Notes under the pieces: generated by a model
The model's database searches: none
Seen by the model: the letters and a program-made list of their open reading frames with translations, nothing else
Told to the model about the DNA's origin: nothing
Source of the DNA: Verrucomicrobia bacterium ADurb.Bin070
GTDB lineage: Bacteria; Verrucomicrobiota; Kiritimatiellia; RFP12; UBA1067
Direction: 5' to 3'
Assembly (NCBI GenBank): GCA_002071025.1
Contig: MWEJ01000005.1
Coordinates: forward strand, 1 to 36,197
DNA: 36,197 bases
Translations under genes and position numbers: made by a program
Part shown: positions 2,552 to 18,491 of the stretch, one piece after another
Numbering within the stretch: position 1 is the stretch's first letter
How the letters are laid out: each line of letters begins with the position of its first letter

Positions 2552-3604
2552 ATGAACATACAGAACAAGAGCATCTTTCGTGCGGCACCTCTCGCGGCCC
2601 TGCTTTGCGGCGTGTCAGCGGGCACGCCGCTGGCGGCGGACGAACCGGCGGCGGACGCGGCGTACCGTGCCGCGCGCGCACACCTGCAGGCGCGCCGTTT
2701 CGCGGAGGCGGCCGACGGTTTCGCGCGCGCCGCGGCGTCGACCAATGCCACATTCGCGGCGGCGGCTTGGCTGGGGCGCGGCGAGGCGTTGTTCGGCCTT
2801 GGCGACTGGGACAAAGCCGATGCGGCATACGCGGAGTTGCTGGCGCGCTATCCCGACTCACCGCTCGCGCCGCGAGCCCTTTATGCGCGCGGCCACGCCG
2901 CCCAGCGCGCCAACCGACTCGACCGCGCGCATGCGCACTTCGCCGCGTTTATTGATCGCTACCCGACAAACACCTTGCGCGAGGCATGCACGGCTGCCCT
3001 GGCGACGGTCATGGCGGCGCAGCAGGCCCGCGAACGGCAGGCTGCGCGCGCCGCCATCACTGCCGAACTGGCCGCCATCACTGCCGCGCTCCGCGCGGAG
3101 CGGTGGGAGGAGGCGCACACGGCCGCAGACCGCTTCCTGACTGCGCATCCGGATCATGACCAGGTGCCCGAACTGCATCTTGTGGTTGCCGCCTGCGCCT
3201 ACCGGACCGGCGATTATGCCGGCGCCGCCGAGGCCTATCGCAGGCTGCTGGAGCGCGCACCGCAGCATGCGCGCGCGGCAGAGGCGCGTGCACGGCGGGC
3301 CGAGTGCCTGTTCAAAACCGGCGATTTCGAGGAGGCCCGGGCGCTCTATGTGGAGCTGGCCGAGGCAGACGATGAGCCTGAGGCAAGGGCACGCGCGACG
3401 CTGGCCATCGCCGACTGCGACGCGGCGCTCAAACGCTGGGCAGAGGCGGAACGCGCCTACCTGAGCGTGGAGGTGCTGCTCGGCTGCGAGGCGCTGCGGC
3501 CTGTGGCGCTCCAGCGCCTCGCGGCGCTGTATGACGCGATGGGGCAGCCGGAGAAGGCGAGCCGCACGCGTGACGCGCTGCGGCGCCGGTACCCGGACCG
3601 GTAA
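2552..3604 (+). CDS. Secreted tetratricopeptide (TPR) repeat protein
   Basis: The protein is about 350 aa, alanine- and arginine-rich and almost wholly helical. A short signal peptide ends near AGTPLAADEPA. The rest is helix-turn-helix repeats with TPR-type spacing: ARRFAEAADGFARAA, GDWDKADAAYAELLARYP, GDYAGAAEAYRRLLERAP, GDFEEARALYVELAE, and a final unit near WAEAERAYLSVEVLL. YbgF/BamD-like periplasmic scaffolds have this form and mediate protein-protein contacts. No catalytic motif is visible. The start could be GTG 2549 or ATG 2552, which are adjacent and in frame. Neither has a strong ribosome site. The gene ends 4 nt from the convergent Nudix gene with no terminator between them. Confidence 0.8.
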   Translation: MNIQNKSIFRAAPLAALLCGVSAGTPLAADEPAADAAYRAARAHLQARRFAEAADGFARAAASTNATFAAAAWLGRGEALFGLGDWDKADAAYAELLARYPDSPLAPRALYARGHAAQRANRLDRAHAHFAAFIDRYPTNTLREACTAALATVMAAQQARERQAARAAITAELAAITAALRAERWEEAHTAADRFLTAHPDHDQVPELHLVVAACAYRTGDYAGAAEAYRRLLERAPQHARAAEARARRAECLFKTGDFEEARALYVELAEADDEPEARARATLAIADCDAALKRWAEAERAYLSVEVLLGCEALRPVALQRLAALYDAMGQPEKASRTRDALRRRYPDR

Positions 3605-3608
3605 CCCC

Positions 3609-4358
3609 TCAAGCCAGCGTGAAAAAGGCGTCGATCAGACGGCGCGCGATGCTGACGCGTGAGGGGAGCGGCGGCAGGTCGCCGCGGCCGAACCAGCCGG
3701 CCTCGGCGATCTCGACGCCGTCGGGCGTGATCTCGCCGCTTTCATACTCCGCCGTGAAGCCGAACATCAGGTTGTTGGGAAACGGCCAGGGCTGGCTTGC
3801 GGCATACCGGATGTTAGTGACGCGCAGGCCGACCTCCTCCGCGATCTCGCGCGCCACGGCCTGTTCGAGGGTTTCGTGCGCCTCGACAAACCCGGCCACC
3901 AGACTCCAGAACGGCAGCAGCCCCCCGGCTTTGCGGGTCAGCAGAATCCGGTCACCGCGCGCGACCAGCGTGATCACCACCGGATTGATGCGCGGATAGG
4001 CGGTGTGGCCGCAGGCCGGGCAGACCATCGCGCGTTCGGTGGCATGGCGCTGCAGCGGCGCGCCGCAGGCGCCGCAAAAACGGTGGGCACGACGCCAGTG
4101 CAAGAGCTGTCGCGCCAAGCCGGCCTGGGCATAACGCTGCGGTGTGACGAGGTCAAACAGCGCGCGCAGACTGACTCGTTCCGCGCCGGGCGCAGGGGGT
4201 TCTGCGGATTCGGCGGCGAACACCTCCTCAGCCGCGTAAGCGGGGAGCGGCTCCGTGAGGGCGAAGGCGGCAGGGTCCGCGTCGAACAGGCAGGACGGCC
4301 CTTCGGGCGTGTGCCTGACCCAGAGCTGGTCGTCCGAAAACAGCAGCAGGCGTTTCAC
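3609..4358 (-). CDS. nudC: NADH pyrophosphatase-type Nudix hydrolase (NudC-like)
   Basis: This 249-aa enzyme has the full NudC layout. An N-terminal domain is followed by a four-cysteine zinc ribbon (CGACG, then CPACG). Next comes a Nudix box with the pattern GX5EX7REUXEEXGU (GFVEAHE then AREIAEEVGL). The NudC-specific SQPWPFPNNLMFGF segment lies downstream. Family members hydrolyse NADH/NAD+, and some act as RNA deNADding enzymes. I chose GTG at 4358 because GGAGGTG lies about 8-10 nt upstream and because its GTGA overlaps the stop of the preceding gene by 4 nt, so translation is probably coupled. It is the last gene of the folD > unknown > nudC operon. The longer ATG start at 4445 would overlap the upstream gene by 91 nt and is unlikely. 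Confidence 0.93.
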   Translation of the reverse strand: MKRLLLFSDDQLWVRHTPEGPSCLFDADPAAFALTEPLPAYAAEEVFAAESAEPPAPGAERVSLRALFDLVTPQRYAQAGLARQLLHWRRAHRFCGACGAPLQRHATERAMVCPACGHTAYPRINPVVITLVARGDRILLTRKAGGLLPFWSLVAGFVEAHETLEQAVAREIAEEVGLRVTNIRYAASQPWPFPNNLMFGFTAEYESGEITPDGVEIAEAGWFGRGDLPPLPSRVSIARRLIDAFFTLA

Positions 4359-6310
4359 GGAACAGGCACCTCCATGTGGGAGCGGATGGCCGCGCACAGC
4401 GCGGCGGCGTCGGTCGTGTCGAGCCGCGCCAGCACGCACTGCCAACGGTAGGCGATGCTTCCTTTTCGATCAAGAGGACGATGTTTGAAGAGTGCGTCGA
4501 AGGCGGTTCTGCGCCGGCGGTACTCCTGCTGCACCTGCTCGAAACGTTGCTGGAACGCCTCGAGATAGAGCGCGGCGAACGCATCGGCGTTCGGCATGTG
4601 TCGGGCGCGGCGGTTCACCGGCCCCGCGTAGGCTGCGGCGTCACGCTCAAGCCGAATGTCATACTGCGTGAACGAGCCGGTGTGGTCGGAAATGATCAGA
4701 TGTTCGGGCAGGCCGTCGGCGTCCAGCACGATCACCTCGTCACCGTCATCAAACATCACCTGAAGCTCAAGATTTGCGCGCCCCACAATGCAGTTGACGG
4801 CGGCGGCCTCGCCCAGCAGGCGCGCCAGGCGGCAGTTGAACGCCGTGTCTGCGTAACGGGCGGACATGATCTTGTCGGTGGCGCAGCCGCTGACATAGGC
4901 ACGTTCGAAATAGACCGACCAAAAACGCGCGCCGCGGTAGGCCTCGTTATGGCCGTTATAGGTCTCGGCGATGCGCCCGGTGGCGAGGCGCGGCGGCAGA
5001 TTCATGCCGAGCTGCTGGCAGCCGAGGCGGCGATCGAGAATGTAATCCGTGTAATCCATCGCTTCCATCACCGCACGCAGCAGGTCCTTGCCGTCGTCGA
5101 GGTGCTCTTTGACGCCCCACTTCTGAAAGCGCAGGATGCGTAAATCCGGTTTCGTTTTGCCGGCCTCTTTAACCTGCACGATATAGACCGGCGCCCGGTG
5201 CGACACGGGGGCGCGCGTCGAGAGAGAGTGGCCGATGCGGCCGATGTTGATGTATTCGATCGTGTTGTATTCGCGCAGGTAATTGAAGATCACCGCCTTG
5301 GCGCGCGGGTCACAGAGAGCCTTCAGGTCAATATCTTCGGAGAACACGTCGCTTTCATCACAAACCGGATCGAAAATCAGCTCGCCCTTCACAATGCGGC
5401 AGCCGGGCAGCCATTCAATCTGACGATAGAACTCAGGCGAAATGTCCTGAATCAACTCTTCGGCATCGACGGCGTTGGGCTGTTGGGTCAGCGCCGAGCA
5501 CATCCGGTTACGCCACTCGATATTAGCGTCAGACTCGTCGCGCAGCTCTGCGGGCAGTGCCGCGCGAAAAGTATCAAGCAGCTTTCGATAGGCGGCTCTC
5601 AACGCACTGATCGGCAGGTTTGCGGCGTTCAAAGCTTCGAAAGCCTGTCGGGTGAACGCGCAACCCGTCGGAAAGATGTCGATCTCCGGGTACCAGAAGC
5701 GGTTCCGTCGCGCGGCATACTCCACAATCTCTTCGAGTTGCTGCCGGAAGAGGTCATCCGGCTGGTTCCCTAGATTGGCAAATTGGGCGAGCGTGAGAAA
5801 CCGGGTGCCGGTGGACCGGTTGTAGTAGAAGATCGGCAGCGTCTCGATGGCTGCGAGTGAGGAGGAGATCAGGATGCGCATCTCTTCTACAGACACCGGC
5901 AGGCGGCTCATGCGCCAGTTCTCGCCGTGCGCGCGCAGGGCGTCGCGCACCTGCGCGTCGTGCGTGTTGAGATAACGGATGCACCTTTTGGAGACCAGCT
6001 TCTGTAGCATCTCGTCGGCTTCGAACGCAAGCTCCATCGCGTCGGGGTCAGGGCGGATCAGAACCGTGCGCTCATCAAAAAGCAGGTCCACCGAACTCGC
6101 CATTTCTTCGTCAATTTCGAAATCGCTCAACGGCGCCAAGCCTGCTTGCTGCCGCTCCCGGTTCAGCTCCTTGATCCAGGCGAGACGCTGCGTCGCATGG
6201 ACACCCTTCAGCGTGACCAGACCGTCCGACTTCACGAAGATCGTGCCGATCCGTGAGGCGAGTTGCCCTTTTGCATCGCGGGCAAAGAGCGGCTCTCCAA
6301 GAAGTTTCAT
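4355..6310 (-). CDS. Unrecognised 651-aa cytosolic protein in folD-nudC operon
   Basis: I do not recognise a family. The protein has no signal peptide or membrane helix. It opens with a basic region (RIGTIFVKSDG) followed by an acidic helical segment with a DFEIDEEMA stretch. A central alpha/beta part contains YIVQVKEAGKTKPDLRILRF, which looks like a beta-hairpin with a lysine. Near the C-terminus EVIVLDADGLPEHLIISD is a beta-rich acidic segment, followed by a strongly charged coiled helix (QQRFEQVQQEYRRRR). The VQVKE lysine and the later DADG/ISDHTG acids loosely recall an atypical kinase fold, but I cannot support that. It overlaps folD by ATGA and nudC by GTGA, so it is translated as one unit with a one-carbon enzyme and a dinucleotide hydrolase. 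Codon use matches its neighbours. Confidence 0.85.
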   Translation of the reverse strand: MKLLGEPLFARDAKGQLASRIGTIFVKSDGLVTLKGVHATQRLAWIKELNRERQQAGLAPLSDFEIDEEMASSVDLLFDERTVLIRPDPDAMELAFEADEMLQKLVSKRCIRYLNTHDAQVRDALRAHGENWRMSRLPVSVEEMRILISSSLAAIETLPIFYYNRSTGTRFLTLAQFANLGNQPDDLFRQQLEEIVEYAARRNRFWYPEIDIFPTGCAFTRQAFEALNAANLPISALRAAYRKLLDTFRAALPAELRDESDANIEWRNRMCSALTQQPNAVDAEELIQDISPEFYRQIEWLPGCRIVKGELIFDPVCDESDVFSEDIDLKALCDPRAKAVIFNYLREYNTIEYINIGRIGHSLSTRAPVSHRAPVYIVQVKEAGKTKPDLRILRFQKWGVKEHLDDGKDLLRAVMEAMDYTDYILDRRLGCQQLGMNLPPRLATGRIAETYNGHNEAYRGARFWSVYFERAYVSGCATDKIMSARYADTAFNCRLARLLGEAAAVNCIVGRANLELQVMFDDGDEVIVLDADGLPEHLIISDHTGSFTQYDIRLERDAAAYAGPVNRRARHMPNADAFAALYLEAFQQRFEQVQQEYRRRRTAFDALFKHRPLDRKGSIAYRWQCVLARLDTTDAAALCAAIRSHMEVPVP

Positions 6311-15292: not shown

Positions 15293-15435
15293 TTTCCTAC
15301 AGATTGAGCGCGAAACGGACCGCATGCGAAACGGCCGTTAGTTTTGCAGCCGACAGCGTGGTGATCAGGGTGCCCAACCTTCCTCTCGCGACCGTCTGCA
15401 GATGATCACAATTCACTGCACAAATAAGTAGGCGC

Positions 15436-15464
15436 TTGACCCGATTTTTAAGGGTGACTACCAT
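15436..15464 (+). promoter_or_regulatory. Candidate promoter of the primase-helicase-nuclease gene
   Basis: TTGACC (15436-15441) and TACCAT (15459-15464) are 17 nt apart in an AT-richer stretch, giving a leader of about 60 nt before ATG 15531. GGGTGACT at 15452-15459 and GGGTCACT at 15481-15488 lie on or just after the -10. Their TGAC/GTCA cores could form an operator pair. Confidence 0.45.
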
Positions 15465-15530
15465 CTTGAACGTTAATTGAGGGTCACTCCTTTCGCGAGG
15501 TAGGCTCAATAACACCGCAAGGCCGAATTG

Positions 15531-18404
15531 ATGATACAATGGAATCTCGCGCAAGCATACGAGATGGCCATGAATCAGCAAAACACAAGCGCTCTGCCGG
15601 TGACCGGGGCGTCGCCGCCCGAGGCCAAGGTCGCCCTGTTCCGGTCGTTGTTCCGCGGCCGTGAGGATGTGTATGCGTACCGCTTTGAAAGCGCGCTGTC
15701 GGGACGTTCCGGATACCAGCCCGCCTGCGCGCATGAATGGGTGCGCGGACTTTGTGAAAAACCCAAGGTCCGTTGCGCCCAGTGCGGGCACCGACGGTTC
15801 CTGCCTGTGACCGACGCTGTGGTGCGCGCGCATCTCTCGGGGATCGACGAGCGGGGGCGGCCGTTTGTCATGGGCCTGTATCCGCTGCTGACGGACGAGC
15901 ACTGCTGGTGGGTGGCGGCGGATTTTGATAAAGCCGCCTGGCGCGAGGATGTCCGAGCGCTGGCCGAGACCTGCGCGGCCCTCGGCGTGCCGTGTCTGGT
16001 GGAGCGGTCACGTTCCGGGAACGGCGCGCATGTCTGGTGGTTTTTTGCGGAGCCGGTGCCGGCCCGTCTCGCGCGCGACTTCGCGTCATGGCTGCTCACG
16101 GAAACGTTGGACCGCCGGCCGGAGGTGGGGCTTGATTCGTATGACCGTCTCTTCCCGAATCAGGATACGATGCCCAAGGGCGGCTTCGGGAATTTGATCG
16201 CACTGCCGCTGCAAAAGCAGGCGAGAGCCCGGGGCAACAGCCTGTTTGTTGACGGCGAGGGCGAGCCGTACGCGGATCCGTGGGCTGTCCTCAGCCGTGT
16301 GAAGCGGTTCCGTCGTGCCGAGATCGAGGCCCGCGTGGCGGTCGCCCACCAATGTCAGCGCATCGTGGCCGCGCTGCCGGTGAGCCAAGACGAGGATGAG
16401 GCGGAACGGCTGTGGGAACGGTATGTGGCGCCGCAGCCGGAACACGCGGACGCCCCGGCGCCCATGCCGGCGGAGATCCGTGTGGTGTTCAGTGATCGGC
16501 TGTATCTTGACAGACGCGGCTTGACCGCGAGCGCGCTGAGCAGTATCCGCAAGCTGGCCGCCTTTCAGAATCCCGAGTTCTATCGGGCGCAAAGAATGCG
16601 GCTTTCGACATACGGCAAACCGCGCGTTATCGCTTGCGCCGAAGAAACGCCCGGCATGCTGGCGTTGCCGCGCGGGTGTTTCGACGCTCTGCGCGCGTGG
16701 AGCGACGCGCAAGGTGCCCGGCTGAATGTGCATGACCGGCGTGAACCGGGGTGCCCGCTGGAGGTCTCTTTTCACGGTGAACTGCGGCCGGAGCAAGTGC
16801 CGGCGAGCAAGGCGCTGCTGGCGCACGACACCGGGGTGTTGTCCGCCGGCACGGCGTTCGGGAAAACAGTCCTGGCGGCTTGGCTGATCGCTCAGCGGCG
16901 CGTGAATACGCTGGTGCTGGTGAACCGGCAGCATCTGCAAGCACAATGGGTGGCCCGTCTCGCGCTGTTTCTGGACCTGCCTGAAAAAGAGATCGGCAGG
17001 ATCGGCGGCGGACGCCGGACGTGGACCGGACGTCTGGATGTCGCGTTGATGCAGAGTGTCGGCCGGAAAGACGCCGTGGATGACCGCATTGCCACATACG
17101 GACAGGTGATCGTCGATGAATGTCACGCGGTATCGGCGCCCACATTCGAGCGTGTGGTCAGCAAGGCGAAAGCGCGTTACGTGGTCGGCCTCTCCGCGAC
17201 ACCCGTCCGCAAGGACGGCCACCAGCCCATCATTTTCATGCAGTGCGGACCGGTGAGGCACCGGGTTCACTGCCGCCAGTTGTCGCGCGTCGAGCCCTTT
17301 GCGCATATTGTGCAGGTGCGGCCCACGTGTTTTCACGCTTCGGTCAGTCTGATGGAGCAGAACGGGGCGCTGGCCTTCCATGCGGTGTGCGATGAACTCT
17401 GCGTGGACGCGGGTCGGAATCGCCTGATTCTGGAAGATGTGGTTCGGGCGGTGGCGGAGGGGCGTTCGCCGGTGGTGCTGACCGAGCGCCGCGAACATCT
17501 CGCGTTTTTCGCCGAGGCGCTGAAAGAGCGGGTCCGTCATGTCGTGGTGCTCTGCGGCGGGCTCGGGCGGCGGCAGGTGGCCGCGCTGCAAGAGCGGCTC
17601 GCCGCCATTCCGGATTCAGAGGCGCGCGTGCTGCTCGCCACCGGTTCGTATTTGGGCGAGGGCTTCGATGACGCGCGCCTCGACACCCTGCTGCTGGCCA
17701 TGCCGATTTCATGGCGCGGACGGATCGCCCAGTATGCCGGACGGCTTCACCGCCGTCACGACGGCAAGCATGAGGTGCGGGTGATCGATTACGCGGATCT
17801 CCATGTGCCGATGCTGGCACGGATGTTTGACAGGCGCTGCCGCGGTTATGAAGCGATCGGCTACCGGCTCGTGCTGCCGCTCAGCGCGACGCCCGGCTGG
17901 CCGGCGGAGATCGCGGTGCCGGTAGAGCCGACGTGGCAGGAGACCTATGCGTCCAGCGTGCGGCGCCTGTGCCGCGATGGCGTGGACGCCCCGCTGGCCG
18001 ATCTGTTCGTGCATGCCGCCTGGCGGGCGATTCCCGACGATGCGCGGGGTGCCGCGAGGGCGCGCAGCGCGACGGAGGCTTTCCTTTTCAGACGGTTGGA
18101 GACGCTGGAGGCGACCAGCAGTCTGTTTGCGCTCAACGCGCGCCTGCCGATCCCGTGGCAGGGGGGAGACGAGATGGAGGTGGATCTCTGCGCGGCACGC
18201 CTGCGCCTGGTCATCGAGTTGGACGGCGCGCAGCATCTCGGCGACTGCGAGGCGTACCGTCGGGACCGGGCCAAAGACCTGCGCATGCAGGAATACGGAT
18301 TCAGAGTGATGCGCGTGCTGGCTGAAGACGTGTGCGAACGGCTTGATGACGTGCTGGACGCCGTACTTCGGGTGGTTGCCCATTGCCGGGGAATGCGTGG
18401 GTGA
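15531..18404 (+). CDS. TOTE-type primase-helicase-nuclease fusion
   Basis: This 957-aa single protein joins three enzymes. Residues about 30-260 form an archaeo-eukaryotic primase (AEP) domain. It has a Cys cluster (C66, C75, C82, C85, in a CAQCGH ribbon), the metal-binding DFD pair (D131, D133), the SGNGAH motif (H167) and the DSYDRLFPNQD motif. Residues about 420-780 are a superfamily 2 helicase: Walker A GTAFGKT (440-446), DECH box (529-532), SAT (555-557), motif V GEGFDD and motif VI QYAGRLHR. Residues about 845-950 are a DUF559/Vsr-like nuclease (EVDLC, LVIELDG, QHLG; D885, E896, H902). Such AEP-helicase proteins belong to TOTE-type biological conflict systems, thought to act against invading nucleic acid. 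All key motifs are intact. AAGG lies about 8 nt before ATG 15531; TTG 15528 is an in-frame alternative. It has its own promoter and terminator. Confidence 0.9.
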   Translation: MIQWNLAQAYEMAMNQQNTSALPVTGASPPEAKVALFRSLFRGREDVYAYRFESALSGRSGYQPACAHEWVRGLCEKPKVRCAQCGHRRFLPVTDAVVRAHLSGIDERGRPFVMGLYPLLTDEHCWWVAADFDKAAWREDVRALAETCAALGVPCLVERSRSGNGAHVWWFFAEPVPARLARDFASWLLTETLDRRPEVGLDSYDRLFPNQDTMPKGGFGNLIALPLQKQARARGNSLFVDGEGEPYADPWAVLSRVKRFRRAEIEARVAVAHQCQRIVAALPVSQDEDEAERLWERYVAPQPEHADAPAPMPAEIRVVFSDRLYLDRRGLTASALSSIRKLAAFQNPEFYRAQRMRLSTYGKPRVIACAEETPGMLALPRGCFDALRAWSDAQGARLNVHDRREPGCPLEVSFHGELRPEQVPASKALLAHDTGVLSAGTAFGKTVLAAWLIAQRRVNTLVLVNRQHLQAQWVARLALFLDLPEKEIGRIGGGRRTWTGRLDVALMQSVGRKDAVDDRIATYGQVIVDECHAVSAPTFERVVSKAKARYVVGLSATPVRKDGHQPIIFMQCGPVRHRVHCRQLSRVEPFAHIVQVRPTCFHASVSLMEQNGALAFHAVCDELCVDAGRNRLILEDVVRAVAEGRSPVVLTERREHLAFFAEALKERVRHVVVLCGGLGRRQVAALQERLAAIPDSEARVLLATGSYLGEGFDDARLDTLLLAMPISWRGRIAQYAGRLHRRHDGKHEVRVIDYADLHVPMLARMFDRRCRGYEAIGYRLVLPLSATPGWPAEIAVPVEPTWQETYASSVRRLCRDGVDAPLADLFVHAAWRAIPDDARGAARARSATEAFLFRRLETLEATSSLFALNARLPIPWQGGDEMEVDLCAARLRLVIELDGAQHLGDCEAYRRDRAKDLRMQEYGFRVMRVLAEDVCERLDDVLDAVLRVVAHCRGMRG

Positions 18405-18461: not shown

Positions 18462-18491
18462 AAATCCACTTATCATGACAAGTGGATTTTA
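18462..18491 (+). terminator. Rho-independent terminator after the primase-helicase-nuclease gene
   Basis: AAATCCACTT (18462-18471) and AAGTGGATTT (18480-18489) form a perfect 10-bp stem with an 8-nt loop, ending in TTTTA. Both arms have A/T ends, so it may work in both directions. It lies 57 nt past the stop codon. Confidence 0.75.

Follow-up and report, generated by a model that had tools for sequence, protein, structure and literature searches.

What is the role of a gene that joins a primase, a helicase and a nuclease in a single chain and has no evident partner beside it? Such a gene, P0001, lies in the window, by which we mean the whole stretch of 36,197 nucleotides of Verrucomicrobia bacterium ADurb.Bin070 that was analysed. 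It is placed between a gene for a 1299-aa laminin-G-domain protein and a 4Fe-4S ferredoxin operon. The frame runs uninterrupted on the + strand from the ATG at 15531 to the stop codon at 18402-18404 and encodes 957 aa; an in-frame TTG at 15528 or a later ATG could also be the start. The gene and its domains are the following.

15531..18404, + strand: coding sequence of P0001, a 957-aa fusion of AEP primase, SF2 helicase and DUF559 nuclease (from the open reading frame, the motifs and Pfam).
15627..16328, + strand: AEP domain (PF22548), aa 33-266 (from Pfam and the homologue alignment).
15726..15785, + strand: probable zinc site of four cysteines (C66, C75, C82 and C85) within the AEP region, each kept in 99-101 of 101 homologues.
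16779..17864, + strand: XPB/RadD-like SF2 helicase, aa 417 to about 778 (from Pfam, structure-sequence searches, alignment and fold search).
18051..18404, + strand: DUF559/Vsr-like PD-(D/E)xK nuclease, aa 841-957 (from Pfam, alignment, predicted fold and a match to 3hrl).

All the motifs that an earlier note on this DNA had quoted are intact, and each was located by residue in the translated frame. In the AEP these are DFD (131-133), which holds the metal ligands D131 and D133, SGNGAH (162-167), with the nucleotide motif S162-G163-G165-H167, and DSYDR (202-206), with the metal ligand D205. The helicase has GTAFGKT (440-446), with the Walker A GKT at 444-446, DECH (529-532) and QYAGRLHR (734-741), i.e., motif VI from Q734 to R741. 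The nuclease has LVIELDG (893-899), and its conserved residues are E849, E883, D885, E896 and D898. The four conserved cysteines of the AEP were absent from the motif list of that note.

The note's claim of three domains in one 957-aa chain was borne out by Pfam, structure searches and predicted folds, which agree with each other. The Pfam AEP-TOTE profile (PF22548) matched aa 33-266 (E 1.2e-93, 313 bits for a cut-off of 27), ResIII matched aa 417-560 above its curated cut-off (E 1.9e-16), and DUF559 matched aa 884-949 (E 5.3e-10, 39.6 bits for a cut-off of 20.6). Sequence searches of solved structures returned XPB/RAD25 and the CAPP Prim-Pol, and for the C-terminus the endonuclease-like 3hrl. 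The AlphaFold2 model, built with 87 homologues, had a mean pLDDT of 85.8 and was locally confident in the nuclease region; it showed both the AEP and the nuclease folds, as had been claimed. In a fold search of the PDB this model matched XPB/TFIIH and XPB-Bax1 best, and also UvsW; the CAPP Prim-Pol domain ranked 49th (TM-score by target 0.78). XPB and UvsW, like RadD, belong to the DNA helicases or translocases, and DUF559/Vsr-like domains have the PD-(D/E)xK nuclease fold. By its hhhDhD metal motif, its sxH nucleotide motif and its third acidic motif, P0001 is a member of the AEP superfamily and of the AEP-TOTE domain family, and its C-terminus is a DUF559/Vsr-like nuclease by acidic residues and predicted fold.

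Homologues are numerous. A scan of genome contigs gave at least 577 confirmed relatives, from Kiritimatiellae, Lentisphaerota, Verrucomicrobiota, Planctomycetota, Acidobacteriota, Pseudomonadota, Riflebacteria and others; the best 80 of these at least 577 were kept, and nearly all of them match from about aa 24 to 950. We gathered more than 100 full-length three-domain homologues, in PVC bacteria, Acidobacteria and Proteobacteria. The earlier note could be read as making the C-terminal nuclease special to this locus, but it is not, since more than 100 homologues have the same fusion. The AEP residues D131, D133, S162, G163, G165, H167 and D205 are present in 101 of the 101 nuclease-bearing homologues. 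The Walker A GKT is also invariant in the 101, and DECH is found in all except one gapped row. In the nuclease, E883 is kept in 99, D885 in 98, E896 in 96 and D898 in 100 of the 101 homologues, and E849 is invariant in the eight rows aligned at that residue (8/8). Because long open homologues with the same residues span phyla, the frame is not a product of chance. Diverged pairs are far more similar in amino acids than at third codon positions (identities of 0.88 vs 0.58, and of 0.86 vs 0.61), which together with the near-invariant active sites argues for purifying selection. To judge from these sequences, the P0001-type protein is functional and under such selection.

Several known systems resemble parts of this protein. 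One E. coli protein has the same order of AEP and SF2 helicase and about 43% identity over aa 31-781, but it has only about 790 aa, lacks the nuclease, and its gene adjoins one for an inovirus-type Gp2 in an island that has an integrase. On this resemblance, the two proteins belong to one AEP-SF2 helicase group. The RefSeq name of the E. coli protein is "TOTE conflict system AEP domain-containing", and the protein is probably of the Z1568-like AEP family. The Z1568-like family is listed in PMC5862659.

The assignment of P0001 to a TOTE-type system in the earlier note did not hold. TOTE stands for TPR, OB, TBP and Effector, a definition quoted in PMC12458937. The Pfam AEP domain family of P0001 bears this name, but the TPR, OB/CSD and TBP parts are absent at the locus: there is no TPR, CSD or TBP gene among the ten main proteins of the window, and no such family recurs in the neighbourhoods of homologues. 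The identity with a TOTE system is thus ruled out, and the name applies to the AEP domain family only. The nearest solved AEP structures are those of CAPP (7nqd/7nqf), and the PADLOC PrimPol model matches P0001 at aa 24-344. CAPP-type AEPs are primase-polymerases, and a helicase-fused type exists (PMC8211822). Yet P0001 scores 71 with the NCBIfam CAPP model, for a cut-off of 200. Furthermore, the window has no CRISPR-like array, and no cas genes were found among its ten main proteins or the listed neighbour families, which rules out a CRISPR-linked CAPP. The archaeal XPB-Bax1 also pairs an XPB-type motor with a nuclease, but in two proteins, with another nuclease, no primase and an NER-like role. 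ARMADA helicases (PMC12458937) are SF2 defence helicases with a C-terminal Vsr-type PD-(D/E)xK nuclease; they differ in having a YprA-family helicase, multi-gene operons and no AEP.

The nuclease separates two branches of the family. On the tree, the nuclease-less rows form one clade (11 rows, SH-aLRT 97), when leaving out L079 (at a contig edge), L104 (a piece of a gene whose sequence is divided between contigs) and L162 (misassigned, its row being most likely the neighbouring Tn3 transposase ORF). This clade includes one plasmid copy and the E. coli copy. The nuclease region had zero matches among the 72,556 plasmids of PLSDB, whereas the whole protein matched 208 records, the long ones ending before aa 820; this contrast between chromosomes and plasmids may arise in part from the scarcity of PVC and Acidobacteria plasmids, which are probably few in PLSDB. 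Among 19 viral loci of IMG/VR only one covers the nuclease (aa 24-953); ten others are long but end at about aa 780. The nuclease-less relatives sit on plasmids, in integrase islands of E. coli and on viral contigs. Resolvases and integrases were found near their loci, in a count biased by the 10 of the 18 loci that come from viral contigs. Of 5426 complete E. coli genomes, 2117 contained DNA related to the query, and 681 of these had most of it. Since the nuclease-bearing copies are chromosomal and the nuclease-less copies are on plasmids, islands and viral contigs, these data suggest that one fusion event turned a primase-helicase of mobile elements into a weapon of the host.

Two nuclease-less homologues were also seen in particular settings: L162, on an Escherichia albertii plasmid, is beside a Tn3 transposase and a resolvase, and L325, in Dinoroseobacter, is beside three tandem tyrosine recombinases.

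The earlier note had reported no flanking partner genes, and we found likewise. When the neighbouring proteins of 133 loci were clustered, no family was common to more than five loci; hence, the gene has no dedicated partner. Immediate neighbours included AAA_14/DUF4143 proteins (4), Y1 transposases (4), AbiEii (3), Schlafen (2) and ParE (2), whereas the distant control (genes at least 5.5 kb away) was mostly housekeeping, plus two type I specificity subunits. PADLOC gave similar numbers of families for the surroundings of the gene and for the distant control (143 vs 162), so that an enrichment in defence islands is not demonstrated, and the association of the gene with them is suggestive only. 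Housekeeping replication operons, a context that the note had listed as contrary to its view, are not where the homologues are found.

The distribution of the gene is patchy. A census of the class gave matches in 72 of 238 genomes, long ones in about 54 (rows with E < 1e-100), and in one genus only 3 of 58 genomes have a full copy. There is mostly one copy per genome in the class, and a single one in the genome of P0001. Phylum labels require 16 changes on the tree, where, for example, Accumulibacter falls within a group of Kiritimatiellae and Lentisphaerota, and Legionellales within a group of Acidobacteriota. In G221 and G233 the ORF is 93.6% identical at unrelated loci, with no homology across 4 kb of the upstream flank. 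It was probably transferred, because the SNF2 gene adjoining the G221 copy is far less similar to its best match in G233 (about 79% DNA identity). Syntenic pairs also exist (L102/L197 and L213/L214). The gene is accessory, patchily distributed and moved between lineages, its mobility being by transfer.

From these observations we infer a defence role for P0001. In the explanation that we favour, and to which we give an even chance, it is a stand-alone, chromosome-borne and horizontally exchanged one-gene effector against foreign DNA, and represents the nuclease-armed branch of a mobile-element family of AEP-SF2 helicase proteins. The helicase would load on and open invading or replicating DNA at forks, bubbles or junctions of single- and double-stranded DNA, as XPB, RadD and UvsW do, and the nuclease would cut the DNA thus opened. 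The AEP would prime or extend on the exposed single strand, and this synthesis might render the strand double-stranded and cleavable, or bar it from recombination and replication. In this way, a single gene could restrict plasmid, phage or transforming DNA. The intact and conserved active sites argue for such an effector, as do the lack of a partner, the patchiness, the horizontal transfer and the contrast between chromosomes and mobile elements. A functional precedent is the AEP of ICETh2 in Thermus thermophilus, whose loss raises foreign DNA uptake or transformation 100- to 1000-fold (PMC7693054), but which has another helicase partner and no nuclease. This difference counts against the effector, and so do the PADLOC counts, which are similar to those of the distant control, the probable paucity of PVC and Acidobacteria plasmids in PLSDB, and the roles in repair or replication of the nearest helicases, XPB, RadD and UvsW. 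If true, this explanation would describe a compact immune device that is encoded by a single gene and is unusual in having a priming step, in a protein that is common in environmental bacteria and near-invariant at its three active sites. The earlier note stated that the direct function had not been worked out; indeed, we found no functional study of the fusion protein in the open-access literature, which was the scope of our search (closed-access work was outside it).

The same resemblance to repair helicases might instead indicate an accessory enzyme of DNA repair or fork restart, with no role against mobile elements. Its XPB-like motor would open damage, its nuclease would incise in the manner of Bax1, and its AEP would fill in or reprime. 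The closest structures (XPB-Bax1, TFIIH-XPB, RadD and UvsW) are consistent with this role, as are the solitary position of the gene, apart from known defence operons, and the primase-polymerase nature of CAPP-like AEPs (PMC8211822). Against it count the sporadic occurrence, even inside a genus (a full copy in 3 of 58 genomes), the transfer across phyla, the decay to internally deleted remnants in relatives, and the nuclease-less sister clade carried by mobile elements. We regard this role as unlikely, though as the most probable of the alternatives.

Integrated elements use AEP-helicase fusions as replication modules (PMC5862659), and such elements also contain the nuclease-less relatives. P0001 might therefore belong to an integrated element that has lost its other genes to decay, as its replication initiator or primase-helicase. 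However, the ten main window proteins that were scanned include no integrase, relaxase, phage or partition gene, no element gene recurs around the homologues, and an initiator would not be expected to conserve a fused nuclease over a long time. This makes an initiator improbable.

Highly improbable is that the gene itself is selfish, as a one-ORF mobile element in which the nuclease would open a target and the primase-helicase would copy the element into it. Such an element could be solitary, as this gene is, and could leave remnants that retain both ends without the middle, as in some relatives. It could also account for the limits of the DNA shared by G221 and G233, which begins at the start codon and ends a few codons short of the stop. 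Against it, the flanks rearrange around the gene too, there is no second copy in its own genome and mostly one per genome elsewhere, and no clean empty site was found around the G221 and G233 copies, where flanks are also shuffled. Similarity is equally confined to the ORF in the syntenic pair L213/L214, and the sharp edges may thus partly reflect selection on the coding sequence. The copy in G003, also of the window's own genus, whose 3' end adjoins a uroporphyrinogen-decarboxylase-like gene (annotated by eye), was dropped as proof of relocation because the contig breaks off within the gene, leaving the 5' flank unassembled. The stricter form, a self-mobilising single-gene element with ends at the start and C-terminal codons of its own frame, is more improbable still, and we do not claim a self-mobile element because the search around the gene copies turned up neither terminal repeats nor target duplications, nor any clean empty site.

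Remnants with both gene ends and a deleted middle were observed in L094 (11564-11838), L095 (1614-1863), L190 and L189; that of L190 is an open frame of 398 aa with the AEP part and the nuclease tail. A MITE-like element, which the both-end remnants in G004, G012 and G067 (and G103, at a contig edge) might evoke, is unsupported given the one copy in the genome of P0001. It is further countered by the remnant of G004, from the genus of the window, which is an internally deleted gene downstream of the same neighbour as the intact gene.

The region upstream of the gene has two further features.

15436..15464, + strand: sigma70-like promoter, TTGACC-17-TACCAT, upstream of the coding sequence (from the sequence, and from the repetition of the promoter-leader unit at other loci).
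15492..15515, + strand: leader TTCGCGAGGTAGGCTCAATAACAC, with identical copies upstream of unrelated genes in the genus.

The unit of promoter and leader (15425-15515 of the window) recurs before unrelated genes in the genus, at L159 (about 2996-3019, - strand), L158 (3778-3801) and L157 (2944-3026, - strand), and the leader is identical at 24 of 24 positions in three loci. The unit has no Rfam match, nor does any other part of the window; it is possibly a regulatory leader. Just 3' of the gene, at 18462-18489, lies the palindrome AAATCCACTTATCATGACAAGTGGATTT, a candidate terminator or regulator site, of which the same genome has at least seven other close copies. Other repeats were seen around relatives. 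In L215, a gene-sized unit adjoining the gene (3749-4624), two frames of which were scanned without a Pfam match, has short flanking repeats, and many genomes of the genus contain similar copies of it. In L216 (about 4960-5100), a dispersed repeat of some 80-140 bp has many copies across the genomes of one genus of Kiritimatiellae.
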